Source: Pseudomonadota bacterium
GTDB lineage: Bacteria; Pseudomonadota; Gammaproteobacteria; Burkholderiales; REEB80
Reading direction: 5' to 3'
DNA: 41,903 nucleotides
Assembly: GCA_028873515.1 (NCBI GenBank)
Contig: JAGWIG010000019.1
Coordinates: 1 to 41,903, forward strand
Shown: piece after piece, positions 12,117-40,351 of the stretch
Layout: every line of letters starts with the position of its first letter
How positions within the stretch are numbered: position 1 is the first letter of the stretch
Notes under the pieces: generated by a model
Database searches by the model: none
Told to the model about the DNA's origin: nothing
What the model saw: the letters and a program-made list of their open reading frames with translations, nothing else
Translations under genes and position numbers: made by a program

Positions 12117-12169
12117 TTTTTCTCCTTATTGGGCAGAATGCCATTCTCTGATAGATAAGCAGAGTGGAT

Positions 12170-25372: not shown

Positions 25373-26402
25373 GTTTTTTTCGCATATTGGGGTGTATTTT
25401 GCCGGTTTGATCGGTATGGTCTTCATCATCATCCTGGTGCTTCATGAAGGCGCAGGAGGGGTAATGGGCTGTCTGGAAGTTGCCGGTTGGGGGCTGCTCT
25501 GGCTGGTTCCATTCCATTTGTTGCCTATTGGCCTCGATGCAACCGGCTGGCACAGGCTCCTGCGTGATGAACGCCGTGCTACGTTGCCATTTCTGGTCTG
25601 GATCGCAGGGATTCGGGAATCCATTAATGGCTTGCTTCCTGTTGCCAGGATCGGGGGTGAACTGGCTGGAATTCGTTTACTGTTTCGACGTGGCATTCCA
25701 GGTGATATTGCCGGAGCAAGCATAATGGTGGAAGTCACTCTTAACTTGGTGAGTCAATTCATGTTTGCGTTGATGGGTCTTGGGATTATGGTTCATTACG
25801 TGGGTAAAAGCTCCATAATCATTCCCATGTTGCTGGGGTGTCTAATTGCTTTCCCAGGCCTGGTAATTTTTATTTTATTGCAACGCCAATGGGGATTTTT
25901 TCAGCTTCTGAAACGTTTGATAAAGGCGGTTCTGGGTAATCAGAATCCGCTCAAGGGTTTTGTCGATCCTGCTTGTCTGGACGATAGAATCCACGACATG
26001 TATCGATGTCATTCGAGTCTGGGTATTACCTTGTTCTGGCAAATGGCCGGATTGTTCATGGGGGCCGCAGAAGTATGGCTTACTTTTTATCTGCTGGGTG
26101 AACCCATAAAACCATGGATGGCCATGTTGCTGGAAAGCCTGGGCCAGGTTCTACGTAGCGCTTCATTTGTCATGCCTGCCGGTCTCGGTATTCAGGAAGG
26201 TGGATTTGTCTTTTTAGGATCAGCGATTGGTATTGGACCTAACATAGCGTTGGCGTTTTCTTTTGCACGCCGGTTTCGAGAACTGGCATTTGGAATCCCT
26301 TTCCTATTGTCGTGGCAAAGCGCTGAGGGCCATCATTTGCATCGTAACTGGCGGAACAGCTCAAAGAAAATTGGTTCACCCAGCAAAAAAGAAGGGGCGT
26401 GA
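25344..26402 (+). CDS. hpnL: Hopanoid-associated membrane protein HpnL (LPG synthase/flippase-like)
   Basis: A 352-residue integral membrane protein of the lysylphosphatidylglycerol-synthase transmembrane (UPF0104-like) family. It has about seven hydrophobic segments and the family landmarks GIRESINGLLPVARIGGELAG and SASFVMPAGLGIQEGGFVFL. HpnL proteins accompany hopanoid clusters and are thought to act in lipid movement or assembly; the exact role is not settled. The start overlaps the hpnN coding end by 29 nt, implying translational coupling. It ends the recognisable hopanoid unit. The C-terminal tail is rich in Lys and Ser. Confidence 0.88.
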   Translation: MTLKNIIRSKFFSHIGVYFAGLIGMVFIIILVLHEGAGGVMGCLEVAGWGLLWLVPFHLLPIGLDATGWHRLLRDERRATLPFLVWIAGIRESINGLLPVARIGGELAGIRLLFRRGIPGDIAGASIMVEVTLNLVSQFMFALMGLGIMVHYVGKSSIIIPMLLGCLIAFPGLVIFILLQRQWGFFQLLKRLIKAVLGNQNPLKGFVDPACLDDRIHDMYRCHSSLGITLFWQMAGLFMGAAEVWLTFYLLGEPIKPWMAMLLESLGQVLRSASFVMPAGLGIQEGGFVFLGSAIGIGPNIALAFSFARRFRELAFGIPFLLSWQSAEGHHLHRNWRNSSKKIGSPSKKEGA

Positions 26403-26783
26403 ATACGCTGCGCATTTTATCCAATATCTTGTACACAACCCACTCTGGGCAGGAGGAAACCTGTTGGGCAATATAGCGGCCGACAATGATTTCAAGGGCC
26501 GTTCTGCTGCCAAGGGCTACTGGGTAGGTTTTTTTCACATTAAATCATGTTCGTTCCTATCTGCCCCTGCATTTTTCTTAGATCGCATTTAAATCGCTCC
26601 TCCCCAACAATCTCATTTAAGACATAAATATCTAAAGGGAGAGTGTATGGGGCTTCCTGCGTTGATTAAAGCGTATTCCGTCTGCTTGATGTTTCAGCTG
26701 GAACTGAGCGGGCATGCTTTTCTGAATGTTATGGTAAGGTAAGCCATTATCTGAATTTCCAACCAGACGATCGGGAAACCAGA
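26403..26783 (+). other. Region downstream of hpnL with one small-ORF candidate
   Basis: About 380 bases without a substantial gene. A T-run near 26528-26535 could end the hpnL transcript but has no strong stem. A micro-ORF with an excellent ribosome site begins at 26647 and is listed separately. The sequence marks the transition from the conserved hopanoid block to the accessory region. Confidence 0.4.
26647..26742 (+). CDS. Candidate 31-residue micro-ORF
   Basis: ATG 26647 is preceded by AAAGGGAGAG, a near-ideal ribosome site, and the frame runs 31 codons to TAA. The peptide starts MGLPALIKAYSVCLMF and contains one short hydrophobic stretch. No family is recognised. Candidate roles are a leader peptide for the membrane-protein ORF 41 nt downstream or the remnant of a larger gene. 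The call rests only on the ribosome site. Confidence 0.3.
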   Translation: MGLPALIKAYSVCLMFQLELSGHAFLNVMVR

Positions 26784-27125
26784 TTGAGTCCCAGACAAAT
26801 ATTCGTACTTATCGGTTCCGTCGCCACCATGATAGGAGTGTTTACCGTGCTGGTGACGGCTCCTTTCATGGGCAGCGTGAATGCCTTTGATAACGGAAGA
26901 AGTATAGGTTCCGTGATTTTTATTTTGGGAGTGGTTTCACTGGTGTTATTACTGGCCAGGAAATATATCGGACTCTGGTTGGCCGGAGTGAGGGTCTTGG
27001 TGATTACCCTTTACCTGTTCGTTGAGGAGCAGTTACATATTTCCTGCCTCACGGAACAGATTGTCAGGAATATGGATGGAAGCTTTTTCCAGGAGCTGGC
27101 TAACATGGCCGCGAACTCTATTTAG
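26784..27125 (+). CDS. Small hypothetical membrane protein
   Basis: A 113-residue frame starting with TTG. It has two to three hydrophobic segments: residues about 5-29 (IFVLIGSVATMIGVFTVLVTA), 40-58 (IGSVIFILGVVSLVLLLA) and 62-81 around LWLAGVRVLVITLYLFV. A polar, acidic C-terminus follows. Natural amino-acid composition and alternating hydrophobic blocks suggest a real inner-membrane protein, but no family is recognised and the ribosome site is weak. The true start could be internal. Confidence 0.5.
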   Translation: MSPRQIFVLIGSVATMIGVFTVLVTAPFMGSVNAFDNGRSIGSVIFILGVVSLVLLLARKYIGLWLAGVRVLVITLYLFVEEQLHISCLTEQIVRNMDGSFFQELANMAANSI

Positions 27126-27372
27126 TTGGACTGGGATTGGACTGTGTTGCTAGCGGGATGTTTATTTATTCTGGCGTTTTTGTGGCACTTTCTATGACCA
27201 TAAATGACAATAGCCACTAATTACATGCTGTTTGCAACCCATTGAAATTTAATATTTTTTATGTTTTCAAGGGGTTAAAAATAAAACAAACTGGCGGAGG
27301 CTGAGGGATTCAGCCTTTTAACCTATAATTTATATATTTATCAATATGTTATAAACTAACAACAGATGAAGA

Positions 27373-27408
27373 TTGGCACACCAAATTGGCACACCAAATT
27401 GGCACACC
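27373..27408. repeat. Three tandem 13-bp repeats TTGGCACACCAAA
   Basis: TTGGCACACC occurs at 27373-27382, 27386-27395 and 27399-27408 with an exact 13-bp period and AAA spacers. The array abuts the left end of the long direct repeat. A single related copy (TTGGCACGC, from 34349) occurs at the corresponding position of the right repeat. It may be an operator or recombinase-binding array; no function is proven. Confidence 0.7.
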
Positions 27409-27689
27409 TGCTTATTGTCGAATGGGGTTTATTGTCCTTCTTTTTTTGCAGAAATTCAACTGAAAATAGGCCATGAATGCACTTAGTACAGGGAGGGGCA
27501 ATTGTGAGTATGGAGTATGTTATGGTTTTATTTCTTGTCTTGGTTCTTTAATCAAGCTATGTTGTAATGAACAGGGAGCCTGTCCAATCTGGAAATTCGA
27601 CTTTTCCACGAAAGGCCTTATAAGCTCATTCGAGAAATCCTTAGCTTATTTGTGGTTCTGGCCATGGAAATTGACTTAGGCATGGGCAC
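27396..27689. repeat. Left copy of a ~290-bp diverged direct repeat flanking the Hsp70/DUF262 island
   Basis: This segment aligns in the same orientation with 34346-34627. Shared landmarks include TTCTTTTTTT-CAGAAATTCAACTGA, AATTGTGAG, TTAATC-AGCTATGTTGTA, ACGAAAG-CCTTAT and GAAATCCTTAGCTT-TTTGTGG. Similarity is interrupted by small indels, by eye roughly three-quarters identical. The left copy has lost the start codon and frame of the small membrane-protein gene that the right copy retains. Confidence 0.8.
27620..27689 (+). pseudogene. Decayed copy of the 42-residue membrane protein gene
   Basis: Aligned with the intact gene at 34562, this copy has ATA instead of the ATG start, a 2-nt insertion in the fifth codon region (CATTCGAGAAA versus CATTAGAAA) that shifts the frame, and loss of similarity after about 70 bases. 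It can no longer encode the protein. Confidence 0.65.
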
Positions 27690-27691
27690 TC

Positions 27692-27987
27692 TTAACCCAG
27701 ATTAATTTTGCCCATCACAATTAATTCTCTTCGAAGCGATTTGCGTAACAGAGCTCCACAAAGCGCAATTAGTGTAGCCACACCAAATTTTACTTCAGAC
27801 ATGGAGGCAACGAAGGTGCGTAATTGGATGCTGAACTCATTTGTCCGTGGGTCTCTTTGTCGCCAACCAGCTGAACGGCTCTTGCATGGAGATTCTGTTC
27901 GGCAGAGCGGGCTGATTCCTGAAAGGCTGGAGGGATAGGTTTGTTGAGGAGGCGCATTTCTGACCCGAGTCCTTTGTTCACCTCAAT
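27692..27987 (-). pseudogene. Frameshifted remnant of an unrecognised gene
   Basis: On the minus strand one frame reads VNKGLGSEMRLLNKPIPPAF and on through AVQLVGDKETHG. The natural-looking continuation lies in another frame, TNEFSIQLRTFVASMSEVKF and on to LRRELIVMGKINLG, ending at TAA 27692-27694. Joining the frames near 27835-27845 would give a coherent C-terminal protein of about 95 residues, and an in-frame stop lies just upstream of 27987. I do not recognise the family. It sits immediately inside the left repeat and suggests older, eroded mobile DNA. Confidence 0.4.
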
Positions 27988-28056
27988 CCGATAAAGACTA
28001 GGGTTGCAGTCCCCACCACTTAGTTAAATTGTCCAAACTTGACTTGGCCCCTGCGC

Positions 28057-29742
28057 TCATGTCAACTCCCATTTATCTTTGAGCAGTGCCATCAGGTCGG
28101 ATTGCCTCTTTTCGACAACTTTTGGAGTCCATTCTTCAGTACTTAGTACTTGTGTTGTTAGGATGTAGGAAGAAACCCCACTGCGGCCTGCGAAATATGC
28201 CTTCTTCTTGGTACTAAAATCATAATTTTGGGCGGCTGAGTTTCGACGCTGGTTCAGCGGCACTAGGTTAGCAATATGGTGTACCCAACTATATTGTTCG
28301 GCAACAGAAGGCCACCATTCCTCCCACTGCGAACCTGCGGCAACCGTTTGCGGTAGTACATGCTCTATGGTCAATAGTGTAGGGTCATAACTAGCCGCGC
28401 CATCTGAGAGGAAAGAATCTAATCTTAGGATGAGATAGTTCCTGCGGCGTGCCGTCATCATGTAGATGTCACCATTCAGAGCCAGAAGCATTGCATCCTT
28501 TTCACGGTCCGATAACTCTATCTCGGCAATCGGTGATGAAATGAAGTGCGGCATTTCCAAGGCTTGCAGGATACGCGCATAGCGCTCAATTCGCATATTT
28601 ACGTCATAAGCGCATATATGCATGAAAGCCGCCAACCGCTCTAGTTTTTGGAAAAATAAGAGCACATAGTTGGCTTCTGAAGCTTTGTTTGCCAAAAACT
28701 TCATTGCTGAAGGTAGCCAGTCTGAGTTGTCGATACGATTCAGCCAGTGTAGCAATGCGTTGACTTCTGCAGCGTTTGAAGTAGAAATGTATTGGTTCTG
28801 CTTGGCGACAAGATAGGCCTCTGAGTAAGGCTCTATGACTTTAGTCACCAAGTCCTCTGATGAAGAAACCGTGGTGATAACTTTCTCCCTAAACTCATCT
28901 AAAAGTGTGCGACGAGCCTTTTCTTTGGCGTAAATCATGCGGATATGGGTAAATACTTCCGCAAAGCCATCCCGTCCAGTTTCAACTTCCAGTTCTTCCC
29001 AAATTTCCGTGTATTCATTCTGCTTAGCTGGAGCAATGTTGCCAATGACCTCAGACTTGATGATGTCAGTGGGCAATAGGTCGAGGCCTCTGCTGTTGAG
29101 TACAGAAAATATCCGGAAAGCTGACTGTTGGCTCGGCGTGGAAACTGCAACCAGAAAGCAGCGTTGCACCAGAAATGAACCAAACTCAACCAAACGGGGA
29201 GTGTCTTCACCGAAGTTTGTGTTAATACGTTGCATAAAGAGCTGGGCATTTCGCCGAATATTTCGCTGTGACTCGTTATCTACCTGAGCCGGTTCCAAGG
29301 CAAGCATTTCTTTTAGGCGAAGCCCCTGAACATAGTCAGCAAAGAACTGCCGGTCTCGTTCACGCAACGCCAATCTGGGCTTAGGCTTAAGTCCTTGCGA
29401 GGCACGGCCTGGCTCCCGGATATAACTTTCGAAGTCTACTCGTAGCTCGTCGTCGAATTGTGAAGTTATAGCAGCAAGCAATATGGTGAGAGTGGTTAAC
29501 CGTTGCTGGCCATCAATTACCTCGGAATCTGGTTTTCCTTCTTCCTTAATGAGGACAATACTTCCCAAAAAGTAGGTGTCGTCCTTCTCTTTTAAAAAGA
29601 AGTCATATAAATCGGAAAGCAGCTCTCCTGCTTGCACCTCAGTCCAGGCATATGGTCGCTGATAGGAAGGGATGCTGTAGTCGAAATCGGAGCTGAAGAT
29701 TTTCGCAAGTGGATACTCGGCGCCACTAATTTTTTTACTCAT
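28057..29742 (-). CDS. DUF262/DUF1524 protein (GmrSD-like putative nuclease)
   Basis: This 561-residue protein combines an N-terminal DUF262 domain and a C-terminal DUF1524 domain, the architecture of GmrSD type IV restriction enzymes and relatives. DUF262 shows IPSYQRPYAW (residues 24-33), LGSIVLI and the hallmark D77-G-Q-Q-R81 (EVIDGQQRLTTLTIL), the ParB-like NTP-binding motif. It also has FRIFSVLNSRGLDLLPTDIIK. DUF1524 shows the HNH nuclease signature with Glu460-His461 (TIEHVLPQT), HHIANLVPLNQRRNSAAQN and a following Lys-rich YDFSTKKKAYF. Such proteins cut modified phage DNA or act in other defence systems. It is the last gene of the operon, 19 nt after the Hsp70-like gene, which suggests chaperone control; that is inference. 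Confidence 0.9.
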   Translation of the reverse strand: MSKKISGAEYPLAKIFSSDFDYSIPSYQRPYAWTEVQAGELLSDLYDFFLKEKDDTYFLGSIVLIKEEGKPDSEVIDGQQRLTTLTILLAAITSQFDDELRVDFESYIREPGRASQGLKPKPRLALRERDRQFFADYVQGLRLKEMLALEPAQVDNESQRNIRRNAQLFMQRINTNFGEDTPRLVEFGSFLVQRCFLVAVSTPSQQSAFRIFSVLNSRGLDLLPTDIIKSEVIGNIAPAKQNEYTEIWEELEVETGRDGFAEVFTHIRMIYAKEKARRTLLDEFREKVITTVSSSEDLVTKVIEPYSEAYLVAKQNQYISTSNAAEVNALLHWLNRIDNSDWLPSAMKFLANKASEANYVLLFFQKLERLAAFMHICAYDVNMRIERYARILQALEMPHFISSPIAEIELSDREKDAMLLALNGDIYMMTARRRNYLILRLDSFLSDGAASYDPTLLTIEHVLPQTVAAGSQWEEWWPSVAEQYSWVHHIANLVPLNQRRNSAAQNYDFSTKKKAYFAGRSGVSSYILTTQVLSTEEWTPKVVEKRQSDLMALLKDKWELT

Positions 29743-29761
29743 TTAATTTTTTCTATGGTGT

Positions 29762-31612
29762 TTAAGGACTAGGCTCTGCGTTAGAGATATTTAAGTGGTT
29801 TCTACCTACGTTAGAAACGGATTCTTGTTGCTTAGCATCTAATAAACTGGCACAACTACATAATGGGTCATTTGATGGGCGTCCACATATTGAGCAGGGC
29901 GTGTAATAAAGATGTTCATCTACTTGAAATTGAGGGGGATGCCGTCGCAAATCAAAATACATTGGGTTAAAACGGTACAAAACCTCACCAGGAACCAACT
30001 CTAGTTTCTCATGCGCCGCGATGTTTGAACGCATGACCAGACTTCCCGATTCATTTTGAGATTTAGATTTTGCCGTGTCGGGGAATGATTCCTCATCAAG
30101 TAAATCAAGTTTCATAGACGGTAATGCCAGAGCAAACTCAAGGTCGTGAACCTCCGCCTCTGCATAACCACGTTGGTTTAATGAACGCGCTGTAGCCTTG
30201 AATATAAGGTTTTCATCAATAGTAACATCCAAACTTAAACGCTCTTGGAAGGGCGGCGCCTTTTTGTCTACTTGAACGACCAAGTTGGCTAACGGGCGGC
30301 GTATATCGTTTGGAAGGACTTTTGGCCCCGGTTTTCTCGGCGCCATCAATTGAAATTTTCCGTAGCCATCGGTAGGGTCAACGCAGTACAAGCTAAAGTT
30401 GTCACAACGCGTTTCGCCCTCTTGTGGCATTTCCAAATTTGCCGCGAGTAAAGGCATGTAGGAGTTACGCGCCAGAACCAATTCAACATTTTTTGCAAGA
30501 TGAAGTTTTGCGTCATCATGGGCGACCCATGCTGCTCCTTCGGAAATTAATGAAGCAGTATGTTCTGGGATATGCACTCGCTGGGGGCCAAAAAGTTCAT
30601 GAAGTCGGGCTTTGATAGCGGGCATGTTCGCCATACCGCCTGTGACTAGGCACATTGCTACGGATGCGCTGGAATAGTCTTGGCTTTCCAGAAGCTTTTC
30701 AACTCTAGTCATACCTTTGTCTATTAATTTAGCAACCATGGATTCCAGCTCGTCTCGTGGAAGTGGGTAATCAAGGTCCGGGTCATCAAGTCCACGAAAA
30801 AAGTTCGGTACATAAACATTAACCTGGCTGCGTTGGCTCAAGTCAATTTTTGCTCGTTCGCAGGCATGCATAAGCCGAGCACGAGCTTCGGGTTGAGAGT
30901 TCGCATTTTCTGGTATTGATTTTGCCTCCCTAAAGCGCTGCTCTACTTCATTTTTGAGAGTTTCATCAAAAAGGTCTCCTCCAACCTCATCTGTTCCATC
31001 GTTCACAACTTGAACCAACAAGTCATCAACTAGTCGGCACAGAGTCAAGTCTAGCGTCCCGCCACCCCAGTCAAATACCAAGATGAGTTGCCGGTTATAT
31101 TGCCTAAGAGTTGCAGCAAAGTCATTACTGGTACGTAGAAAGCCATATAACGCCGCCAATGGCTCATGAATAAACTGAACAATATTTATTCCCGCCATGC
31201 GGAATGCATCTCTAAGAAGTGCACGTCGGTAGCCCTCCATATTTACTGGAATAGTTACCACAGCTTTGTCAATTGTAAGGTTTTTGACAGTGCGTGTGTC
31301 CATGGCCTGGTTACGTACAAACTCCACCACGTGACGTACAATATCAACAGGGTTACGTTCTACGCCTCCGACAAATACGCTTTCCCGCCCTAGTAAAGTT
31401 TTCGGAGAGAGGACTACATTGCCTTGGACCCCTAGACCGGCTTGTGCCAAACGCTCTCGTGCTTCACGTCCAACAAGAGTCTGCGTTCCCTCATAACAAA
31501 CGACAGAGGGGATAGGTAAGCCTTGGTCATCATATAAGTTAATGACCTTGTCGCCCTGAATAATGGAAATCAAACTGTTTGTCGTGCCGAAATCGAATCC
31601 AATCGCTTCCAT
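29762..31612 (-). CDS. Hsp70-like ATPase with a C-terminal cysteine cluster
   Basis: A 616-residue DnaK-type protein. The actin-like ATPase motifs are intact: phosphate 1 D7-F-G-T-T-N12, a Lys in SPKTLLGR (K71, equivalent to DnaK K70), AVVTIPVNMEGYRRALLRDA, phosphate 2 D181-W-G-G-G-T-L-D, and the adenosine loop VTGGMANMPAIK. A beta-rich substrate-binding-like segment follows (RLSLDVTIDENLIFKATARS). There is no DnaK-type lid. Near the C-terminus is a C-x2-C-x8-C-x-C cluster (Cys573, 576, 585, 587), which may bind zinc. This is not a housekeeping DnaK: no grpE or dnaJ is near, and it lies between a coiled-coil gene (1-nt gap) and a DUF262/DUF1524 nuclease gene. GGGAGA precedes ATG 31612. Confidence 0.9.
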   Translation of the reverse strand: MEAIGFDFGTTNSLISIIQGDKVINLYDDQGLPIPSVVCYEGTQTLVGREARERLAQAGLGVQGNVVLSPKTLLGRESVFVGGVERNPVDIVRHVVEFVRNQAMDTRTVKNLTIDKAVVTIPVNMEGYRRALLRDAFRMAGINIVQFIHEPLAALYGFLRTSNDFAATLRQYNRQLILVFDWGGGTLDLTLCRLVDDLLVQVVNDGTDEVGGDLFDETLKNEVEQRFREAKSIPENANSQPEARARLMHACERAKIDLSQRSQVNVYVPNFFRGLDDPDLDYPLPRDELESMVAKLIDKGMTRVEKLLESQDYSSASVAMCLVTGGMANMPAIKARLHELFGPQRVHIPEHTASLISEGAAWVAHDDAKLHLAKNVELVLARNSYMPLLAANLEMPQEGETRCDNFSLYCVDPTDGYGKFQLMAPRKPGPKVLPNDIRRPLANLVVQVDKKAPPFQERLSLDVTIDENLIFKATARSLNQRGYAEAEVHDLEFALALPSMKLDLLDEESFPDTAKSKSQNESGSLVMRSNIAAHEKLELVPGEVLYRFNPMYFDLRRHPPQFQVDEHLYYTPCSICGRPSNDPLCSCASLLDAKQQESVSNVGRNHLNISNAEPSP

Positions 31613-31613
31613 A

Positions 31614-32873
31614 TTAATCTCCCTGAAGTTGCTTTATTTCTTGGCGCAAGGCATCAGTTACCCGCTCGGCATGGTCTACCATGACGTGAACTTTTGGTTC
31701 TGTCCTGGAGAGTGCCTGTAAGCCCTCCTCAAGCAAATGAACGTCTGATTTCATGCGTCTTAACAATCTAGTTCTTTGAATCTCCATGTCATTGCGTAAA
31801 TTCATAGCTTCCAGCTCATTCTTTGCACGCAAAGAATTAATTTCTGCATAATGTGCTTGCTGCTCCCTTTCCCTGCTCTCTTCAAGCTCTGGTATTCTCA
31901 AGCGAAGCGCCTTAAGGTCAGCTTCTAGCATGTGGACACGGGCCCTAAGAGTTTCCACCTCTCTATTTGCTGATTCACTAACACGAAGCCTCTCATAAGC
32001 TAATCCTCGGTATTCGTCACAAGCGAGACCAACACCTGCAAGTTCTGTGATACCGGAAATAATATCCCGCTTGCTAGCGTCTGACGTCAGCTTTTGTGCC
32101 TTCGGCGCCCATAGCGAAGTGAATAACATATCTGTTAGCGCTGCGACAGTCAGCCCCTTGTTCTCTGAAACCCAGATGGCCATGCAGTAAACGGCATTAG
32201 TCCGCAGTTGCTCGAACTCTGCAGCTTTGAGAGAGCTGTTAAACTCAGGAGGCAAGTCATTTAATTTTGTTGTGGCAATCTGCATTAATACGTCACTAGG
32301 TGCAGGGGCCTCGCTTAAGTTACGAATTGCTGTCTCAATGCCCTTATGAAGAAATATTGGGTGCCTGAGCAAGGTGTTCCGGACGAAATCACGGATGGCT
32401 CCTTGTAGTCCTGGATAACTAGTCACTTGCTGTGCCGCCAGAAGCAGTTGGCGAGGTACAGCAAAAGTAATATCTTTTTTTGAGGCTTCAATAAGACGTT
32501 GATAAGCTTCTTCAGATAGCCTTGGGTCTTGAGCAATTTGCCGCTCAACTTTCGGCTTAAGCGATAATTTCCTTCCTTTCAGTGAATATGCATGGGCAAT
32601 GAATTGCTCCAAAGATGTGATTTTTACTATTTGTTTGGATTTGCTTTGTTTACCCACAGCCCCAGCCTTCTTAGCATCTAAATCAGGCATAGAAGCATTG
32701 CTGGAGGCTTTAGTAGGAACCTCGATTTCATTGGTTCTCATTTGGTTTTCAGTAGGTTTTTTTTGATGTTCGTTAGTAGCCCGTATCTGTGCCTCACTCT
32801 GAGAGATTGGGTCTGAATAGCGAACCCCTTTGGTCTTTGCGTTGGTTGTGTGAACGCGCTTCTCTTTGTTCAT
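31614..32873 (-). CDS. Uncharacterised protein with C-terminal coiled coil
   Basis: About 419 residues. The N-terminal ~85 residues are polar and low-complexity (Lys, Asn, Ser, Thr), probably disordered. Residues about 90-300 form a helical domain without a recognised family (SLEQFIAHAYSLKGRKLSLK onwards). Residues about 310-410 form a heptad-rich coiled coil (REVETLRARVHMLEADLKAL through HVMVDHAERVTDALRQEIKQ). An AAGGA ribosome site 9 nt upstream favours ATG 32873. ATG 32882 overlaps the upstream stop (ATGA) and is also possible, while the longer frame from 32921 is not. It sits between the zinc-finger and Hsp70-like genes and may be a scaffold or sensor for them. Confidence 0.8.
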   Translation of the reverse strand: MNKEKRVHTTNAKTKGVRYSDPISQSEAQIRATNEHQKKPTENQMRTNEIEVPTKASSNASMPDLDAKKAGAVGKQSKSKQIVKITSLEQFIAHAYSLKGRKLSLKPKVERQIAQDPRLSEEAYQRLIEASKKDITFAVPRQLLLAAQQVTSYPGLQGAIRDFVRNTLLRHPIFLHKGIETAIRNLSEAPAPSDVLMQIATTKLNDLPPEFNSSLKAAEFEQLRTNAVYCMAIWVSENKGLTVAALTDMLFTSLWAPKAQKLTSDASKRDIISGITELAGVGLACDEYRGLAYERLRVSESANREVETLRARVHMLEADLKALRLRIPELEESREREQQAHYAEINSLRAKNELEAMNLRNDMEIQRTRLLRRMKSDVHLLEEGLQALSRTEPKVHVMVDHAERVTDALRQEIKQLQGD

Positions 32874-32878
32874 TAGTA

Positions 32879-33985
32879 TCATTCCTTCCCAGGCAGGCGA
32901 ATTAACGAGCGTTCGGCCCAACCAGATGTTTTGGGATTTGTAATCAATTCCCGCGCTATATTCCTGGCCTTTAAGAAATTTCCGTTTGCGGTATAAGCTT
33001 CTGTTAGTAGAATATTTAATTTAAGTCGGTCAAACTCTGTTATATCCCGCTTCACTAGTGCCGAGATGTTACCAGCCTCTGTCGCCAACTCGGATAATGG
33101 TAGCTCAATCCATCTCAAGATGCGGAGCGTTTCGTGGTCGGTGAGCAAGTCTTCAGGCACATTAGACAGTTTCTTGGCGGGTGTGTTTTTTTTATCCCAT
33201 TGCCCCCCCTTTAGGATAGTGTCGAAGCGAATTGCCGCCATATGCAATCGACCTGACGGGGAAAAAATGGAAGCATTTTCGAAATGGTTAAAATGGAAAG
33301 CCACCAAGCTTCGCACTATGTGTGCCAAAGGTCGGTTATAGTCCATTAGTGCATCTGCGGCCTGATTAAATCGCTCTGGGTATTGAGCATATGGAATCCG
33401 TGAGTCAGGCCTCCTTTCTCTGGACATGACGCCGTAAAGGTAGTCACAGATACCGCTGTAATAAGTATCCGCAGTATTGAATGCTTTACATTCCTTGATA
33501 AAGCCTTCAAGAGCCTTAACGGATAATTCCTTTCGGTTGGTAAAGCGCACGAAGCTAGCCTCAACCCCTTTGATATGTTGTTCTTCAGCAATTTTGAACA
33601 CTAGCTCAAATACCGCTGGAGGACCATCATTGGTCAACTTGACAGTCACCCTGTCGTTATTAACCTTTGATAATAGTTTTGGAATCTCCTCAGGCTTGGT
33701 AGGTTTGCCATTGAAGGATGCATTGGTACAGCGTTCCACTACGAATTCTGACGGTTTAGCTAAACGGGTGACCCTAAAGGGTGTCGCACCTAATTCAACA
33801 CCTCTCACGAACAACTGAGGGCGCAGATAGGGATGTGATTCGAAGCGATGCCTGCGGAGGTCATCCATAGAATCAAAATGTAGGTCACAATGTTGACAGT
33901 GATAAATGGGCTGTTGAGACTGATAGGTATAACTCAGGTCTGCTTCGTCATGAAATTCTAAGTATCCCGTATGCCAGAAACCCAT
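32879..33985 (-). CDS. C2H2 zinc-finger protein of unknown family
   Basis: A 368-residue protein with a classical C2H2 zinc finger near the N-terminus: Cys30-x2-Cys33-x12-His46-x4-His51 (HCQHCDLHFDSMDDLRRHRF), including Phe and Leu at core positions. Such fingers are uncommon in bacteria. The middle (residues about 55-150) looks beta-rich and holds FVRGVELGATPFRVTRLAKP. The C-terminal half is helical, and its last 60 residues (LNILLTEAYTANGNFLKARN) resemble a TPR-like repeat. It is the first large gene of the four-gene operon and could recognise DNA or a partner protein; function is unknown. The ribosome site before ATG 33985 is weak. Confidence 0.8.
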   Translation of the reverse strand: MGFWHTGYLEFHDEADLSYTYQSQQPIYHCQHCDLHFDSMDDLRRHRFESHPYLRPQLFVRGVELGATPFRVTRLAKPSEFVVERCTNASFNGKPTKPEEIPKLLSKVNNDRVTVKLTNDGPPAVFELVFKIAEEQHIKGVEASFVRFTNRKELSVKALEGFIKECKAFNTADTYYSGICDYLYGVMSRERRPDSRIPYAQYPERFNQAADALMDYNRPLAHIVRSLVAFHFNHFENASIFSPSGRLHMAAIRFDTILKGGQWDKKNTPAKKLSNVPEDLLTDHETLRILRWIELPLSELATEAGNISALVKRDITEFDRLKLNILLTEAYTANGNFLKARNIARELITNPKTSGWAERSLIRLPGKE

Positions 33986-34020
33986 GCTTCGCTCACTTTC
34001 TTGTTATATTAACTAGGGGA

Positions 34021-34359
34021 CTAACTTCTTGCAGTTCTCTTCTCCACTAGTATCAGATGGTGGTCTTTAATGAGGACACTCTTGAAGACCTTGAACGAAG
34101 CAACGGGTTCAACTTTCTTACCCCTGTCTTTTCCCCATTTGATGTCGAGCTTTGGTGGTTTATTGTGGTGTAGAACCCCGTAGTTTATGAAGGGGCGGAT
34201 GTTAAGGAGCATTCCGTCATTGAGGTTGGTATCCAGACGCACAGGTACGTGTATATGGGAGCCTCTAGATTTTTTTGGTCTAGCTTGTAATAGATTACTA
34301 GGGCCGTAAAGCCGTCCTTGAGACCGCCCCCGACATGCCAAATGCAAATTGGCACGCAT
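34021..34359 (-). CDS. Hypothetical small basic protein upstream of the zinc-finger gene
   Basis: A 112-codon frame. The C-terminal 80 residues (VPVRLDTNLNDGMLLNIRPF through HHLILVEKRTARS) have natural composition and a beta-rich pattern. The first 30 residues overlap the right direct repeat and look unnatural, so the true start is probably internal. It ends 35 nt before the zinc-finger gene and may be an extra operon member. No family is recognised and no good ribosome site was found. Confidence 0.35.
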   Translation of the reverse strand: MRANLHLACRGRSQGRLYGPSNLLQARPKKSRGSHIHVPVRLDTNLNDGMLLNIRPFINYGVLHHNKPPKLDIKWGKDRGKKVEPVASFKVFKSVLIKDHHLILVEKRTARS

Positions 34360-34627
34360 ATTAAATAACGAATAGGTGCATTTTCATTCTTTTTTTACAG
34401 AAATTCAACTGATAGTAGGCAACGGATGTAATGATTATAACTATAAGGGTAATTGTGAGGATGTAGGGTTTTAATTGCTTGCCTTGATTCCTTAATCGAG
34501 CTATGTTGTATTGAACCCGGTACCTTCTCTGTAGAAGCATGACTTTTTCACGAAAGACCTTATGACTTCATTAGAAATCCTTAGCTTGTTTGTGGTCCTG
34601 GCGATAGGAATTGGCTTAGGTGTGGGC
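34346..34627. repeat. Right copy of the ~290-bp direct repeat
   Basis: This is the direct-orientation counterpart of 27396-27689. It lies about 360 bp beyond the start of the zinc-finger gene and includes the start and most of an intact 42-codon membrane-protein gene. The two copies enclose the complete four-gene operon, consistent with insertion or recombination at duplicated DNA. Confidence 0.8.
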
Positions 34628-34690
34628 GCGCTGCTCATTGACCATCACTCGGCCAAACGGGCGCTGCGTGACAGGCTCCTGGACAAGTAG
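34562..34690 (+). CDS. 42-residue single-span membrane microprotein
   Basis: ATG 34562 to TAG 34690 encodes a 42-residue protein. Residues about 4-26 are a continuous membrane helix rich in Leu, Val, Ile and Gly (LEILSLFVVLAIGIGLGVGA), followed by a basic cytosolic tail (HHSAKRALRDRLLDK). A decayed copy exists in the left repeat, so the gene is old and repeated. A perfect terminator hairpin follows 15 nt after the stop, which supports it being a real transcription unit. The ribosome site is weak. Function is unknown; such short, basic-tailed membrane peptides occur both as toxins and as phage or satellite proteins. Confidence 0.55.
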   Translation: MTSLEILSLFVVLAIGIGLGVGALLIDHHSAKRALRDRLLDK

Positions 34691-34705
34691 AGCTGTTTTA
34701 ACCTG

Positions 34706-34739
34706 ACCCCCTTCCCCCCGACCTGGGAGGGAAGGGGGT
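34706..34739. terminator. Bidirectional intrinsic terminator
   Basis: Arms ACCCCCTTCCC (34706-34716) and GGGAAGGGGGT (34729-34739) form a perfect 11-bp stem with a 12-nt loop, followed by TTCTTTCGGG on the plus strand. It sits between the convergent 42-residue membrane-protein gene and the 57-residue minus-strand gene and could serve both. Confidence 0.75.
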
Positions 34740-34748
34740 TCTTTCGGG

Positions 34749-34922
34749 TTATTTAACGGCAATGTAGATAACCGGGTCTTCCAGCTCTTTTCCAGTCCGG
34801 TCTATTTTTCCCGGCACTTTAAACACCTGGCTGATGTCCCGTAGTTCCCCCTCCCTGAAACAGACGACGTTGAGGTGGGGTAGATACAGGCTGAGCTTCT
34901 TGACAAGTTCTCCGATGGTCAT
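34749..34922 (-). CDS. Small conserved-type protein of the replication module
   Basis: A 57-residue protein beginning MTIGELVKKLSLYLPHLNVV and ending DPVIYIAVK. It resembles the very small accessory proteins common in phages and plasmids that start with an (M)T-(V/I)-x-E-L-(V/I)-x-K-L helix followed by a short beta hairpin. AAGGAG 7 nt upstream of ATG 34922 decides this start against the longer frame from 34979. It is read away from the helicase gene. Function is unknown. Confidence 0.65.
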   Translation of the reverse strand: MTIGELVKKLSLYLPHLNVVCFREGELRDISQVFKVPGKIDRTGKELEDPVIYIAVK

Positions 34923-35315
34923 GGCGTGGCTCCTTGTGGATGGGGTGGAAAGGGTGTCCCTCTGTAGCCTGTATAGCAATGACTGGGGGAGCGCCTTCCC
35001 CGGTTGGGGAAGGGTATCTTTTTCAGGGTTTGTTACCCTTGTTACCCCGGTTACCCTGTTTTGAACAAAGACGGGCCAGAAAGGGCCAAGGTAACCGGGT
35101 AGGAAACTTCCCTGTTCTGAATGCCTGGCGGCTACCCCATAAAAAATATTTTCCCTGAAGATTCAGGAAGTCATCCGTCTATGGAGCCTTTTTATTCCCT
35201 GTAGGGCTAAACCCGTGCCTATACGTGGGACAAGAATCCCTCTTGTTCCACGTAGACGCTTTTTCTGGGCCAGACGCCTGCGTGCAGCTTTCCCCTGGCC
35301 CAGGGAGAACGTATC
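34923..35315. other. Divergent control region of the replication module
   Basis: About 390 bases between the 57-residue minus-strand gene and the plus-strand AlpA-like gene. It holds the iteron-like GTTACCC array (35032-35056) and an inverted GGTAACCGGGTAG copy at 35090-35102. No convincing gene is present. Confidence 0.5.
35032..35056 (+). repeat. Three GTTACCC repeats at exact 9-bp spacing (iteron-like)
   Basis: GTTACCC begins at 35032, 35041 and 35050, a regular 9-bp period. An inverted near-copy, GGTAAC, lies at 35090-35095 and continues into ACCGGGTAG, a motif found again in the inverted repeat at 37026-37059. Regular short repeats beside a replication helicase gene suggest an initiator or regulator binding array; this is inference. 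Confidence 0.55.
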
Positions 35316-35516
35316 ATGCACATCCTTGATATCCACGAACTGGCCTGCCTGCTGCAGCGCTCCCCCGAAACCATCAGGAAGGACCTGCGCCGCAATCCCC
35401 TGGCGGTGCCGCCCAGACTTCACATTCCCGGCACCCGGCTATTGCGCTGGCGGGCCTGCGATGTGGAAGCCTGGCTGGCCGGCTATGTGGAGGTGCGCCA
35501 TGGCCACCAAATTTGA
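35316..35516 (+). CDS. AlpA/excisionase-like helix-turn-helix DNA-binding protein
   Basis: A 66-residue protein whose N-terminus, MHILDIHELACLLQRSPETI, then RKDLRRNPLAVPPRLHIPG, matches the winged helix-turn-helix of AlpA/MerR-like excisionase proteins. The RWRACDVEAWLAGY segment is the typical closing helix of that family. CAGGGAG lies 8 nt before ATG 35316. Its end overlaps the helicase gene start by 17 nt, so the two are translationally coupled. In P4-like satellites and integrative plasmids such proteins regulate excision or the replication operon. Confidence 0.85.
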   Translation: MHILDIHELACLLQRSPETIRKDLRRNPLAVPPRLHIPGTRLLRWRACDVEAWLAGYVEVRHGHQI

Positions 35517-36822
35517 TTCCCACCAGTATGCCGTCGAACAGCTTCTCAACCGGAAACTGGCCTACGAGGGCGGCCTGATTTATGCCTGGCAGGACACCCA
35601 CTGGGTTCCGCTGGACGAGGACCAGGGGGAGCGCCAGGCCTATGCCTGGATAGTCCATCGGGACCGCGGCTTTGCCAACCCCATCAATGCCAGGAAAGCC
35701 CATGGCGGACTTCTGGACTGGGCTCCGGCCCTGCCGCCTCCGGCTTCCATGGATATCATTCCCTGCCGCAACGGCTATGTCCATGTCAAGGACAATGAGC
35801 TGCTCCTGAAACCCGCCGACCCTGCCCTGGGTCTGCGTCATGCCCTCAGTTGCGACTACCTGCCGGACTGTGGCCCGCCCCGCCAGTTTGAGCGCTTCCT
35901 TGCGCACATCCTGCCGGATGCCGCAGTGCGGACCCGGGTGCAGGAATACGTCGGCTATACCCTGACGGCGGACGCCCGGTTTCAGCGCGCCCAGCTCTGG
36001 CTTGGAGGGGGTGCTAACGGCAAAGGGGTGCTGGCCAACATCGTGCAGGCCCTGCATGGCCAGGTGGCGGCGGTGAACCTCGATGCCCTGGAAGGCTTCA
36101 GGATGTCGGTGATGATAGGGGCCAGCCTCATCTATGCCGATGAGGTGCCCCGGAGGCCAATCAATGAGCAACTGCTCAAATCCCTCATTGCCGGGGAACG
36201 GGTGCAGGTGGACAGGAAGTACCGCAACCCCCTGAGCATCCATGTCCGGGGAAAATGGCTGGTCCTGGGGAACCACCTGCCCGCCATCACCGACCATTCG
36301 GTCGGATTCTGGCGCCGCTGGGACATTGTTCCCTTCACGGTGACGATACCGGAGCGGGAGCGTAATCCCCTGCTGGCCGAGGACATCATCGGCAAGGAAC
36401 TCTCCGGGGTATTGAACTGGGCACTTAAAGGCCTGATACGCCTGAAGCAGCGTGGCCTGTTCGACCCCATCCTGCCCGAAGCCATGAAGGCGGTCATCCA
36501 GACGGCCAAGACCGAGACCAATTCGGTGCTCGCCTGGGTGGAGGACGGAGAAATCAGGCTGGGCTCCACGATGGATGTGCCCAAGGACAGGGTGTTCCAG
36601 CATTACCGCGCTTGGGGCGAGCGCAATGGCCTGGCGGCGATGGGGTCATCCAAGTTCTGGCCCCGGCTCAAGGACATCCTGCCCTATGAGGAAAGCCGCA
36701 AGCGCCTGGGCGGGGCGTTCGTGCGGGTGTGCAATGTGGCCCTGCCTGGATGGGAAAGCGCTGGGTTGAAACCACCGGAGACCGTGCCCCCGGAGGAAGG
36801 CTTTAACTTTGGTGCCAGGTGA
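35500..36822 (+). CDS. P4/D5-family replicative helicase (superfamily 3), phage/plasmid primase type
   Basis: From ATG 35500 the product is 440 residues. It has a D5_N-like region (about residues 95-160), the Walker A loop G169-G-G-A-N-G-K175-G, a Walker B strand MIGASLIYADEVP, motif C around KWLVLGNHLPAITDHSVGFW (sensor Asn and downstream Arg), and a C-terminal winged-helix region. These are hallmarks of the P4 alpha/D5-type SF3 helicases used to replicate phages, satellites and plasmids. It lacks the long N-terminal primase part of P4 alpha, so a separate primase may be needed. The longer frame back to 35215 is rejected because it overlaps the AlpA-like gene in another frame. The G+C-rich codons differ sharply from neighbouring regions. 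Confidence 0.92.
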   Translation: MATKFDSHQYAVEQLLNRKLAYEGGLIYAWQDTHWVPLDEDQGERQAYAWIVHRDRGFANPINARKAHGGLLDWAPALPPPASMDIIPCRNGYVHVKDNELLLKPADPALGLRHALSCDYLPDCGPPRQFERFLAHILPDAAVRTRVQEYVGYTLTADARFQRAQLWLGGGANGKGVLANIVQALHGQVAAVNLDALEGFRMSVMIGASLIYADEVPRRPINEQLLKSLIAGERVQVDRKYRNPLSIHVRGKWLVLGNHLPAITDHSVGFWRRWDIVPFTVTIPERERNPLLAEDIIGKELSGVLNWALKGLIRLKQRGLFDPILPEAMKAVIQTAKTETNSVLAWVEDGEIRLGSTMDVPKDRVFQHYRAWGERNGLAAMGSSKFWPRLKDILPYEESRKRLGGAFVRVCNVALPGWESAGLKPPETVPPEEGFNFGAR

Positions 36823-37025
36823 TACCAGGTTGAACCAGGTCCAACCCGATGGAAAAGCCCGGCCCATGATGGTTTACCGGGTGAACCGGGCACCTCCAGA
36901 AAGGTTTATCCCTTCCTCCCTTTTCCCCTCACCCTCACCCAGCCTGAACCTTTGTGCGATAGGTTCACATTTAACCCGGCACACCCGGTTCATGCTCTGG
37001 AAACCCCATTCTGTATAGGTTTACC

Positions 37026-37059
37026 ACCTTACCGGGTAGCCAGGGCTACCCGGTAAGGT
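37026..37059. repeat. Perfect inverted repeat, 16-bp arms, 2-nt centre
   Basis: ACCTTACCGGGTAGCC (37026-37041) and GGCTACCCGGTAAGGT (37044-37059) are exact complements separated by AG. The absence of a real loop and T-run argues against a terminator and for a dimeric protein site, cruciform origin or resolution site. The core ACCGGGTAG is shared with 35094-35102 upstream of the helicase operon. Confidence 0.75.
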
Positions 37060-37147
37060 CCTGGTAGTCCCGGTTCACTCCTGTTTTCCTGGACCAAGGG
37101 AAAGCGGGGAGGGACCGTGCCCCTTCAGGGTTCTATCCCTTATAGCT

Positions 37148-37186
37148 AAAGTGCTCAGAATCCTTGCCCTGCAAGGGCAGCACTTT
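37148..37186. repeat. Two-tier hairpin (possible structured RNA or terminator)
   Basis: Outer arms AAAGTGCT (37148-37155) and AGCACTTT (37179-37186) enclose an inner stem TGCCCT-GCA-AGGGCA. It is not followed by a T-run on the plus strand. It could be a small regulatory RNA element of the replicon; no known family is recognised. Confidence 0.35.
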
Positions 37187-37323
37187 GCTTGGCACAGGGG
37201 GTTAAGGGTTGGGAGTATGGGGGGTGAAAGGAGTCAGAAAGGATGCTCCAGGCATACGGCGGGCACGGTGAGTGCAAGGCACAAAGCCAGACAGAGGTTG
37301 TTTAGGCCACTAGCTGGAGAAGA

Positions 37324-38823
37324 TTACTGGCCAGATGCAGGGTGGTGGGCATTCCACCATTGCCTGGCGAGTTCCTGGGCCTGGGCGATTTGTTGGGAGG
37401 TAGTCACATTTTCGACTACATCTAAAATTTTATCCACACCTTTTTTTCCGTTAGCCTTGGCAAGAATGAACCATTTTACGGCTTCTGAGTAGTCTTGTGG
37501 CACACCTCGGCCTTGGCCATACATCACTCCTAGGTAGAATTGGGCATCAGCATAGCCTTGTTCAGCGGCTTTTCTATACCACTTTACTGCCTCGGCGTAG
37601 TCTTGTGGCACGCCCTGGCCATGGTCATACATGATTCCCAGGTTGAATTGGGCATCAGCTTCACCTTGTTCCGCGGCTTTGCGATACCACTTCGCAGCCT
37701 CGGTATAGTCTTGTGGCACGCCTTGGCCATGGGCATACATAATCCCCAGGTTGTTTTGGGCATCAGCAACACCTTGTTCGGCGGCTTTGCTGAACCACTT
37801 TATGGCCATTGAATAATCTTGAGGAACACCTTGTCCTTGTTCATACATCACCCCCAAATTGTTTTGGGCATCAGCAACACCTTGTTCGGCGGCTTTTCTA
37901 TACCATTTTGCTGCTTCGGAGTGGTTTTGGGGCACTCCTTCGCCATGGTCATACGCGACCCCGAGGTTGTATTGGGCATTAGCGTTACCCTGCTCTGCGG
38001 CCTTGGTATACCACTTTATGGCCATTGAATAATCTTGAGGAACACCTTGCCCTTGTTCATACATCACCCCCAGGTTGAATTGGGCATCAGCTTCACCTTG
38101 TTCGGCGGCTTTTCTATACCATTTTGCTGCTTCGGAGTAGTTTTGGGGCATTCCTTCGCCATGGTCATACGCGACCCCGAGGTTGTATTGGGCATCAGCT
38201 TCACCTTGTTCTGCGGCTTTGCGATACCACTTCGCAGCCTCGGTATAGTCTTGTGGCACGCCTTGGCCATGGGCATACATGATTCCCAGGTTGTACTGGG
38301 CACCAGCATAGCCTTGTTTGGCGGCTTTGGTATACCACTGTTCTGCTTTGGCGTAGTTTTGTGGCACACCTTGGCCATGGCCATACATCACCCCCAGATT
38401 GTTTTGGGCGTCAGCAACACCTTGTTCGGCGGCTTTGCGATACCACTTCGCAGCCTCGGTATAGTCTTGTGGCACCCCTTGGTTTTGGTGATACATGAAT
38501 CCAAGGGTGTCTTGGGCATCAGCATCCCCTTGGTTCGCAGCCTTTAAATACCAATATTTGGCATTTACCCAGGATTTTTGAACAGTAGTCTCGGATTTGA
38601 GTGTAGTTGGGTCAAAGAGCGTTCCATACCAGAATTGGGCTGCAGGTATTCCGGATTCTGCTTCCTCTTTCAGCTTGGCGAGTATGGTTGGGTCTGTTGC
38701 CGCTTTATTTGCCAGGGCCATGTAGGTCGCCTCATCACTTGGCGCAGCTACGGCCATATCAGACAGCATGAGGCTGGATACCAAGGCAATGTATAACAGA
38801 AAAGCAGTCTGCTCGCGTCGCAT
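37324..38823 (-). CDS. Secreted Sel1-like repeat (SLR) protein
   Basis: A 499-residue protein with an N-terminal signal peptide (cleavage likely after AVAA, residue about 27). It has one degenerate repeat (AAQFWYGTLF onwards) and ten canonical 36-residue Sel1 repeats of the form DAQxNLGxMYxxGxGVPQDY followed by xEAAKWYRKAAEQGxA. Sel1 repeats form alpha-alpha superhelices that bind proteins; secreted members act in cell-envelope or host- and phage-interaction roles. The repeats are so similar at DNA level (108-nt units) that recent expansion by unequal recombination is likely. The C-terminal 45 residues (ILAKANGKKGVDKILDVVEN onwards) are a family-typical cap. Specific partner unknown. Confidence 0.93.
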   Translation of the reverse strand: MRREQTAFLLYIALVSSLMLSDMAVAAPSDEATYMALANKAATDPTILAKLKEEAESGIPAAQFWYGTLFDPTTLKSETTVQKSWVNAKYWYLKAANQGDADAQDTLGFMYHQNQGVPQDYTEAAKWYRKAAEQGVADAQNNLGVMYGHGQGVPQNYAKAEQWYTKAAKQGYAGAQYNLGIMYAHGQGVPQDYTEAAKWYRKAAEQGEADAQYNLGVAYDHGEGMPQNYSEAAKWYRKAAEQGEADAQFNLGVMYEQGQGVPQDYSMAIKWYTKAAEQGNANAQYNLGVAYDHGEGVPQNHSEAAKWYRKAAEQGVADAQNNLGVMYEQGQGVPQDYSMAIKWFSKAAEQGVADAQNNLGIMYAHGQGVPQDYTEAAKWYRKAAEQGEADAQFNLGIMYDHGQGVPQDYAEAVKWYRKAAEQGYADAQFYLGVMYGQGRGVPQDYSEAVKWFILAKANGKKGVDKILDVVENVTTSQQIAQAQELARQWWNAHHPASGQ

Positions 38824-38952
38824 GATGAATTTCCCCTTTTAATATGCTGGATGGCGGTAAGGCCCACCCTTGTTTTTCCGTCATTATGCTCCTGTAACTG
38901 TTTGATGTTCAATAATCTTCTTGCTGCTCATGTCGTCATGTAAGTGTCGAAT

Positions 38953-38987
38953 AACAAGCCCAAAGCCTGACCGGCTTCGGGCTTGTT
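38953..38987 (-). terminator. Intrinsic terminator
   Basis: On the minus strand AACAAGCCCGAAGCC pairs with GGCTTTGGGCTTGTT across a 5-nt loop, a 15-bp stem with one G-U pair, directly after the stop of the 117-residue gene (38992). It ends that transcript before the Sel1-repeat gene. Confidence 0.75.
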
Positions 38988-38991
38988 TACC

Positions 38992-39345: not shown

Positions 39346-39367
39346 GAGGGCTTCCTTTAAGGGTGGG

Positions 39368-39625: not shown

Positions 39626-39756
39626 GGGCACATCCTTTCTTTCAGGGTTGTTAATCAAAGCATCGTGATGGGTATAGCTACTTTTTTTCTGAAACTTGAA
39701 CATCTGGAACAAAAGCCGGGTGATGCTGAAAATAAATTTCACGGGAAGTCCTTTCC

Positions 39757-40194: not shown

Positions 40195-40316
40195 GTTGAG
40201 GAAGGTTGATGAAGGGTAAGGGGTGAGCTAGTTATGCCTTAATTAGATGATTATTTTGGATTTGGAGAATTGTATGGCCGTCTGAACTTTTTTAAGTAGA
40301 CTAAGATGTAGTACAT

Positions 40317-40333: not shown

Positions 40334-40351
40334 TAGTGTTTTAATGTAGTA

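Follow-up and report, generated by a model that had tools for sequence, protein, structure and literature searches.

A zinc-finger, coiled-coil and Hsp70 gene trio recurs in and beside restriction operons and may form an auxiliary defence module

Four genes lie back to back on contig JAGWIG010000019.1 of a Pseudomonadota bacterium (assembly GCA_028873515.1): a C2H2-finger protein (ZF), a coiled-coil protein (CC), an Hsp70-family ATPase (HSP) and a DUF262/DUF1524 nuclease. This combination poses the question whether the four form one system and, if not, which of them belong together and what they do. The whole stretch analysed, positions 1 to 41,903 of the contig, is called the window. Here, the four open reading frames (ORFs) are intact, all on the minus strand, and span positions 33985-28057. 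L-numbers such as L010 and L011 denote the loci compared with the window, whose own copy is called WIN.

33985-32879, minus strand: ZF, 368 residues, with an N-terminal C2H2 finger, a beta-rich domain and a helical array resembling tetratricopeptide repeats (TPR)
32873-31614, minus strand: CC, 419 residues counted from a conserved ATG, with an N-terminal helical domain, a helix of ~110 residues (the coiled coil) and a C-terminal helix
31612-29762, minus strand: HSP, 616 residues, an Hsp70-family ATPase with a region like the beta substrate-binding domain (SBD-beta) and a C-terminal zinc ribbon
29742-28057, minus strand: nuclease, 561 residues, DUF262/DUF1524 (GmrSD-like), by its distribution a companion linked to bacteriophage exclusion (BREX) that lies outside the conserved trio

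To delimit the family, an alignment of the Hsp70 (A1) was scanned against genomes and viral contigs. The scan returned 61 loci of one subfamily (L010-L067 and L088-L090) at 38-85% identity, followed by a drop to generic Hsp70s at 32% or less (L068-L087). A fourth viral contig, L091, was excluded, its match covering no more than 34 residues. With the plasmid locus L007 added, the family comprises 62 loci, and the window brings the count to 63 trios. CC is present in 62/62 family loci (partial in L066) and ZF in 61/62, the exception being L066, which is cut by the contig end. Wherever ZF is present the order is ZF-CC-HSP on a single strand, and neither ZF nor CC is found at the 20 generic Hsp70 loci that served as controls (0/20 each). 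Pairwise distances co-vary between the three proteins (HSP-ZF r 0.93, HSP-CC 0.93, ZF-CC 0.91; n=57). Measured against the window proteins, HSP evolves slowly (38-85% identity), ZF (19-70%) and CC (12-66%) fast. By record title, the hosts belong to Burkholderiales, Gammaproteobacteria, Actinobacteria, Acidobacteriota, Gemmatimonadetes, Nitrospirales, Binatia, Cyanobacteria and Latescibacterota. Judged by this census, the conserved unit is the three-gene set ZF-CC-HSP (hereafter the trio), not the four genes. An initial annotation, made from the DNA letters alone, had treated all four as one system, to be given up if they did not co-occur elsewhere. They do co-occur at six other loci (L010, L012, L019, L034, L051 and L053), but only the trio is conserved, and a conserved four-gene system is rejected because the nuclease accompanies just 7/63 trios.

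Where the trio sits gives a first indication of what it may do. PglZ and BrxL of BREX are found at 11/62 loci, and at 10 of these 11 the trio sits between PglX and PglZ, although L050 has an interrupted PglX and the contig end cuts PglX short in L053. The remaining BREX locus, L015, has the trio after BrxL and a dynamin-like gene. BrxA and BrxB lay outside the BREX gene queries for the family loci. PADLOC naming, applied to chosen neighbour genes, returned BrxC, PglX, PglZ and BrxL as neighbours in L010, and further systems elsewhere. In L017 the trio lies inside an Hma operon, with HmaA and HmaB on its two sides and HmaC also named. In L062 the HsdM and HsdR genes of a type I restriction-modification (R-M) system surround the trio, with HsdS directly before ZF, and L063 shows the same order by BLAST. 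In L042, type III Mod and Res genes end 27 bp before the trio. The DrmA and DrmB genes of the defence island system associated with R-M (DISARM) lie upstream of the trio in L038, and DISARM genes lie near it on the opposite strand in L035. In L011, the closest relative of the window, a PtuA (Septu) gene is found two genes before the trio, and in L052 a DruE-like (Druantia-like) helicase follows 205 bp after HSP. PADLOC on nine further neighbours gave the Septu gene, the Druantia-like gene and candidate families; it returned nothing for the tested neighbours of L029, L031, L060, L089 and L025, nor for two L018 genes.

With 16 neighbour-derived queries at 1e-10, a match is found in 32/62 family loci and 0/20 controls. 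Among these 32, L013, L021 and L023 match the dynamin-like query only, and L014, L024, L032 and L052 match only the helicase HmaA. The 14 restriction queries that remain without the dynamin-like protein and the PLD-helicase (named after phospholipase D) match 29/62 family loci and 0/20 controls. Leaving out the five loci that were the source of queries gives 24/57 (Fisher p 1.7e-4), and dropping the generic helicase query HmaA as well gives 20/57 (p 9.8e-4).

Searching the window itself by tblastn with proteins from six related loci reveals pieces of PglX directly upstream of ZF and pieces of BrxL directly downstream of the nuclease, and these are framed by a direct repeat of ~300 bp. None of these features was remarked in the initial annotation:

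34343-34030, minus strand: C-terminal fragment of PglX, the BREX methyltransferase, 64-71% identical to L010 PglX residues 950-990 and 1038-1109, in two frames
28047-27695, minus strand: BrxL fragment, 66-73% identical to L010 BrxL residues 502-618, in two frames
27395-27692, no strand assigned: left imperfect direct repeat, abutting the BrxL fragment, 74% identical to the right copy overall and 77-83% in ungapped blocks
34345-34632, no strand assigned: right imperfect direct repeat, abutting the PglX fragment

The resulting order, PglX fragment - ZF - CC - HSP - nuclease - BrxL fragment, is that of BREX, with the flanking genes present as fragments only. The intact relative L010, a metagenome-assembled genome (MAG) of Burkholderiales, reads BrxC-(134 aa)-PglX-ZF-CC-HSP-nuclease-PglZ-BrxL. 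Since the PglX and BrxL fragments flank the operon as in L010, we interpret the window as the cargo of a BREX locus minus PglZ, most of PglX and most of BrxL. The likeness is to BREX with a type B PglZ, as in L010 (labelled "BREX-1" in plasmid records). The window differs in that BrxC, PglZ, an intact PglX and an intact BrxL were not found in it, BrxA and BrxB not being among the genes sought. The genome-wide search was for PglZ: with the L010 protein as a single query and no positive-control genome, the window's own genome gives no match, so that this empty result is weak. As the gene order indicates, the window operon is the remains of a BREX island and not a free-standing four-gene invention. 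The BREX fragments, together with the restriction neighbours of the relatives, bear out the defence association that had been suspected from the nuclease domains, and they lead us to reject a solitary chaperone operon.

The window is not alone in this respect. The trio adjoins remnants of host systems in the window and L051 (BREX; in L051, 48 PglZ residues remain after the nuclease) and in L024 (HmaA). In both decayed BREX loci the trio and the nuclease are kept together and intact. At L024:7062-7499, a stretch of just 146 HmaA residues (79% identity) lies some 330 bp before the trio, and L024 is an apparent third case of a lost host system. Taken together, the three decayed loci suggest a role for the cassette in its own right.

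In an HSP tree made by a quick method, WIN pairs with L011 and then L010, in a Burkholderiales-rich clade that is also rich in BREX and dynamin-like partners. On this tree nine label changes are needed for BREX and six for the nuclease; partners have therefore been gained or lost repeatedly. Over the 11 BREX loci, HSP distances also track BrxL (r 0.86) and PglZ (r 0.79), which argues that within BREX the trio mostly travelled with its host. Of the 27 trio genomes searched for BrxL, which cover 27 of the 62 loci, 18 give no match (MAGs may be incomplete), so that BREX is apparently dispensable for the persistence of the trio. L011 carries no BREX gene in the locus DNA searched, but has BrxL elsewhere in its genome.

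The comparisons directly show that the three genes form a constant core and are inherited together, that this core lies again and again within unrelated systems and also next to the debris of lost ones, and that the active site of its Hsp70 is intact. From this we tentatively propose, giving it somewhat less than an even chance, that the trio is a self-contained and horizontally mobile auxiliary defence module that occupies the accessory slot of BREX, Hma and type I R-M operons or a place next to such operons, its function being read from this context. In the window, the trio would have survived with a BREX-linked GmrSD-type nuclease after deletion of the BREX core.

If this is the case, the trio may act as an ATP-driven sensor or switch. 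ZF and CC, which diverge fast, would use the finger and the beta domain to recognise a target that derives from the phage or belongs to a restriction complex, and the helical array and the coiled coil would dock this target to the slowly evolving HSP. The ATP cycle of HSP would then release or remodel a client, namely the neighbouring effector nuclease where there is one and otherwise the host restriction complex. The outcome would be a second layer of defence once restriction is blocked, comparable to PrrC and the phage anti-restriction-induced system (PARIS). PrrC backs up restriction systems. PARIS does likewise, as described in passages of PMC12839542. For chaperones in phage sensing, the title of PMC12169576 (DnaJ and bNACHT25) offers a precedent. 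In a wider form of this proposal, which we consider possible but doubtful, ZF-CC-HSP would be a general-purpose guard or remodelling module across BREX, Hma, type I and III R-M, DISARM, Septu and Druantia, and thus an uncharacterised class of chaperone-driven immune switch that is able to outlive its host system. A conserved Hsp70 cassette recurring in unrelated restriction systems would show the chaperone cycle adapted as a part of bacterial immunity, and would offer a way to study how restriction complexes blocked by phages are controlled, rescued or backed up.

The proteins themselves bear on this model to different degrees. HSP matches PF00012 at 9.8e-47. Its motifs DFGTTNS and DWGGGT and residues K71, E150 and GG325-326 are invariant in 58 sequences; the catalytic-site residues, whose roles we take to be those of other Hsp70s, have counterparts in the DnaK-like and HscA-like proteins of the same genome (L002 and L003, named by eye). 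Judged by these residues the ATPase site is intact, as had been noted from the window alone. HSP resembles DnaK and HscA in its nucleotide-binding domain, with D7, K71, E150, D181 and T186 conserved, and the family profile is similar to DnaK structures into SBD-beta. It differs from them in that neither a VLLLD-type interdomain linker nor a helical (SBD-alpha) lid has a counterpart in the sequence alignment with L002 and L003, and in its C-terminal zinc ribbon, of whose four cysteines C573 and C576 are invariant and C585 and C587 conserved at 90% or more; no J-protein or GrpE is recognised in the cassette. In ZF, the finger ligands C30, C33, H46 and H51 are invariant in 59/59 aligned rows, in the pattern C-x2-C and H-x(3-5)-H. 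The single C2H2 finger alone falls below the Pfam cut-off, and the family profile matches C2H2 structures (2i13 at 2.9e-16 over six stretches, 1mey at 7.1e-8). The predicted ZF model (mean predicted local distance difference test score, pLDDT, 87.6) comprises the finger, a beta domain at ~57-130 and helices at ~135-368. In the CC model, a helical N-terminal domain is followed by a helix of 110 residues and another at the C-terminus. Fold comparison with this model gave no convincing match (best Z 7.0, partial helix matches) and does not support the idea of CC as a GrpE-like exchange factor.

As regards the gene calls, one nucleotide separates CC from HSP and 19 nt separate HSP from the nuclease. 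The mechanically called CC start, TTG 32921, overlaps ZF. ATG 32873, 5 nt past the ZF stop, corresponds to an invariant M3 across 58 aligned CC rows and is most likely the start. The gene identities, layout and gaps given in the initial annotation agree with the ORFs and Pfam matches. ZF and CC match no Pfam or NCBIfam family at a usable score, and ZF, CC and HSP have no useful PADLOC match; annotation via Pfam, PADLOC and NCBIfam thus overlooks ZF and CC.

Several points weigh against a defence module. Several family loci are close kin. The 14 restriction queries leave 33/62 family loci unmatched, although one of these, L011, adjoins a Septu ATPase. The neighbour test favours the family because its queries came from genes already known to adjoin the trio, and its controls amount to less DNA (306 kb vs 1.22 Mb), in shorter loci from other taxa. 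The distance between WIN and L011 is near saturation at synonymous sites (dS 1.2-1.9), and the constraint between them is not strictly BREX-free, since the L011 genome has BrxL elsewhere. The ZF helices resemble TPR arrays weakly (best Z 8.0, in a range common for the tool, with a root-mean-square deviation of 6.2 over 208 residues), and Foldseek finds no match for the ZF model at E ≤ 0.001. Finally, no catalytic effector domain is recognised in any trio protein.

The last point would equally suit a chaperone dedicated to assembly, maintenance or restriction alleviation, which provides no defence layer itself. Here, ZF and CC would deliver methylase, helicase or nuclease subunits to HSP for assembly or disassembly. 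Such a role would fit the nesting of the trio among the core genes of BREX (at 10 loci), of Hma (in L017) and of type I R-M (in L062 and L063), its position 27 bp past the type III Res gene of L042 and the nearby DISARM genes (L038; L035 on the other strand). However, a single chaperone would need to serve unrelated complexes, and the trio persists next to a broken BREX in a genome without a PglZ match, besides the 18/27 trio genomes without a BrxL match, some of which may be incomplete MAGs. BREX also occurs without the trio: none of eight plasmid records with a related PglZ is among the two records, both Paenarthrobacter, that carry the trio Hsp70. In the three of these eight that were opened, the accessory slot of trio-less BREX of the same PglZ type carries other genes. 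In a Deinococcus record, the N-6 methylase and PglZ are separated by an HNH gene, a DarT-family gene, an IS3 insertion element and two more genes. In a Pseudomonas veronii record, two unnamed genes lie between PglZ and a 1174-aa coding sequence that stands in the putative PglX place. In the Polaromonas stretch, a methylase before PglZ was not seen. By its variable content, the slot between PglX and PglZ is a cargo slot. We consider the dedicated chaperone unlikely, albeit the strongest alternative to the auxiliary defence module.

In the model put forward in the initial annotation, HSP regulates or assembles the nuclease, and ZF and CC serve as sensor and scaffold of this DUF262/DUF1524 enzyme. 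The nuclease immediately follows HSP in six loci, and HSP and nuclease distances correlate (r 0.93, n=7), though HSP also tracks BrxL and PglZ. The nuclease-bearing trios are L010, L012, L019, L034 and L053, which are BREX loci with PglZ and BrxL, and the decayed BREX loci L051 and the window. Joint retention in both decayed loci fits a functional pair, but adjacency by itself can account for it. Against the model, the nuclease is absent from the locus DNA of 56/63 trios, that of the closest relative L011 among them (eight loci are shorter than 15 kb), and nuclease relatives occur without the trio on 96 plasmid records (E ≤ 1e-60, >80% coverage; 38-61% identity among the 25 rows listed). Four of these contexts were opened. 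In the Acinetobacter plasmid the nuclease match is split in two and neighbours methylase and helicase genes with a type III-like composition; in the Enterobacter plasmid the relative precedes a type I R-M operon; in the Gluconobacter and Rhizobium plasmids a clear system was not seen around it. No Hsp70 is listed in the stretches shown, for which the gene table is incomplete. L007 has two DUF262-annotated genes on the other strand, one of which resembles the window nuclease over 74 residues only. The claim that the other three proteins exist to regulate this nuclease thus does not hold for the family, and we regard a dedicated nuclease system as improbable. From the combined evidence, the nuclease is a separate, BREX-linked companion and not part of the conserved trio.

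By domain content, the window nuclease is of GmrSD type: PF03235 (9e-38) and PF07510 (1.1e-24) lie in one chain, both above cut-off. Passages of PMC12839542 describe GmrSD enzymes as BREX-linked, a further likeness to GmrSD and BrxU-like type IV nucleases. The difference is that its closest solved relatives are DUF262 proteins (9jfl, 5.5e-15) and SspE, none named BrxU, and that the best PADLOC family is Orf5 (PDLC02686, 2.8e-165 over nearly the full length), followed by HEC-06 (1.1e-63). A viral scan with the nuclease gave no relatives. In PADLOC, a defence classifier of the kind proposed as a check, the nuclease alone is matched and no named system has the composition of the operon.

Could the trio instead be neutral or selfish cargo of mobile elements that carry defence islands? 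It is patchy, being found in 1/399 genomes of the window's order, namely the window's own; a single ZF protein as query matched 3/299 genomes of the window's phylum, one of them marginally. The trio Hsp70 is present on 2/72,556 plasmid records. On the conjugative Paenarthrobacter plasmids L007 (P. ureafaciens) and L008 ZF is split by IS3, and direct repeats flank the window unit. At E ≤ 0.001 the ~300-bp repeat has two copies only in the genome, both outside the BREX fragments, and these may be the ends of a mobile element. In contrast, the ratio of nonsynonymous to synonymous change (dN/dS) between WIN and L011 is low (ZF 0.09, CC 0.19, HSP 0.05), the HSP active site is invariant and in-operon placement recurs across several bacterial groups, which makes mere cargo slightly less credible still than the nuclease system. 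No HSP match at 1e-30 was found in phage records, and E. coli genomes gave no DNA match to the HSP gene of L062.

A coiled-coil nuclease tandem (CoCoNuT) that targets RNA, with the Hsp70 as CnuD, is very improbable and its identity rejected: CoCoNuTs likewise join Hsp70-like proteins and coiled coils, near BREX and type I R-M, in passages of PMC11090510, but DUF2357 (CnuC/McrC) is unmatched in 29 of 30 trio genomes or records (30 of the 62 family loci, a list outside which the window's genome falls), its sole match lying on a different contig from the trio, and CnuD, set apart here by description only, is in these passages expected to hydrolyse ATP poorly through a degenerate Walker A-like motif, whereas the HSP motifs are invariant.

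How, then, does the trio relate to known systems? Accessory modules described within restriction operons are mostly nucleases or toxins. The trio resembles PrrC, PARIS and the Hma-embedded candidates in being optional and in occupying a variable slot inside restriction operons; it differs in its core, a chaperone-type ATPase rather than a nuclease or an OLD-TOPRIM pair. Restriction-embedded accessory modules are therefore already known, and the Hsp70 core is the unusual part. Hsp70 parts of defence systems are known from CoCoNuTs, according to passages of PMC11090510; the trio shares with CnuD a defence-linked Hsp70 with coiled-coil partners and differs in having no McrC-type DUF2357 partner, intact ATPase motifs and separate ZF and CC genes. 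A 2026 BREX survey describes many auxiliary effectors, and its text contains no occurrence of hsp, dnak, chaperone or dynamin (PMC12839542). Passages of PMC13092281, PMC12458937 and PMC9523054 do not describe the trio either. The literature and profile libraries searched, outside which most subscription papers and bioRxiv lie, contain no description of the trio, in agreement with the initial annotation, which knew of no described system of this composition.

Some neighbours of the trio deserve separate mention. A protein of ~970 residues is encoded just upstream of ZF in L013, L014, L015, L020, L021 and L023, and before PglX in L012 and L019. The gene at L014:4648-7572 has relatives in L013, L015, L019, L020, L021 and L023, and a partial one in L012. 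The L014 copy has a dynamin-type GTPase N-terminus and an MIT_C/PLD-like C-terminus, which also matches the C-terminal part of a BrxL model. This dynamin-like protein is possibly another trio-linked effector. In Actinobacteria, a gene for ~447 residues directly follows HSP (L037:11760-13103 and 11 relatives, alignment A8) and is present in 14 family loci. The L037 copy has no Pfam or PADLOC match, and the 12-row A8 profile gives coiled-coil-type matches only against solved structures, the middle of the protein being coiled-coil-like; this gene is a possible fourth partner in Actinobacteria. In L062, the gene at 11820-13118, between HSP and HsdR, is a PDC-S15 candidate defence gene, and the same profile also matches the HsdR end. 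The IS3 insertions of L007 and L008 are at differing sites of the same trio region, in both cases splitting ZF.

In the flanks of the window, the left repeat copy contains tandem AAATTGGCACACC-like units, and the right copy continues into a short ORF of membrane-spanning appearance, both read by eye. The left flank is unmatched in the same-genus genome G305. An Rfam scan of 26000-41903 gave zero matches, and promoter-like sites are fewer than in shuffled sequence (6 vs 12.5). Beside the operon, a GC-rich ORF at 35215-36822 has DUF5906 and weak D5-like matches, which suggests an integrated plasmid or satellite element. Further along, a Sel1-repeat protein at 37324-38823 is encoded by DNA made of ten regular repeats with 108-bp spacing and 63-86% identity to the reference copy.

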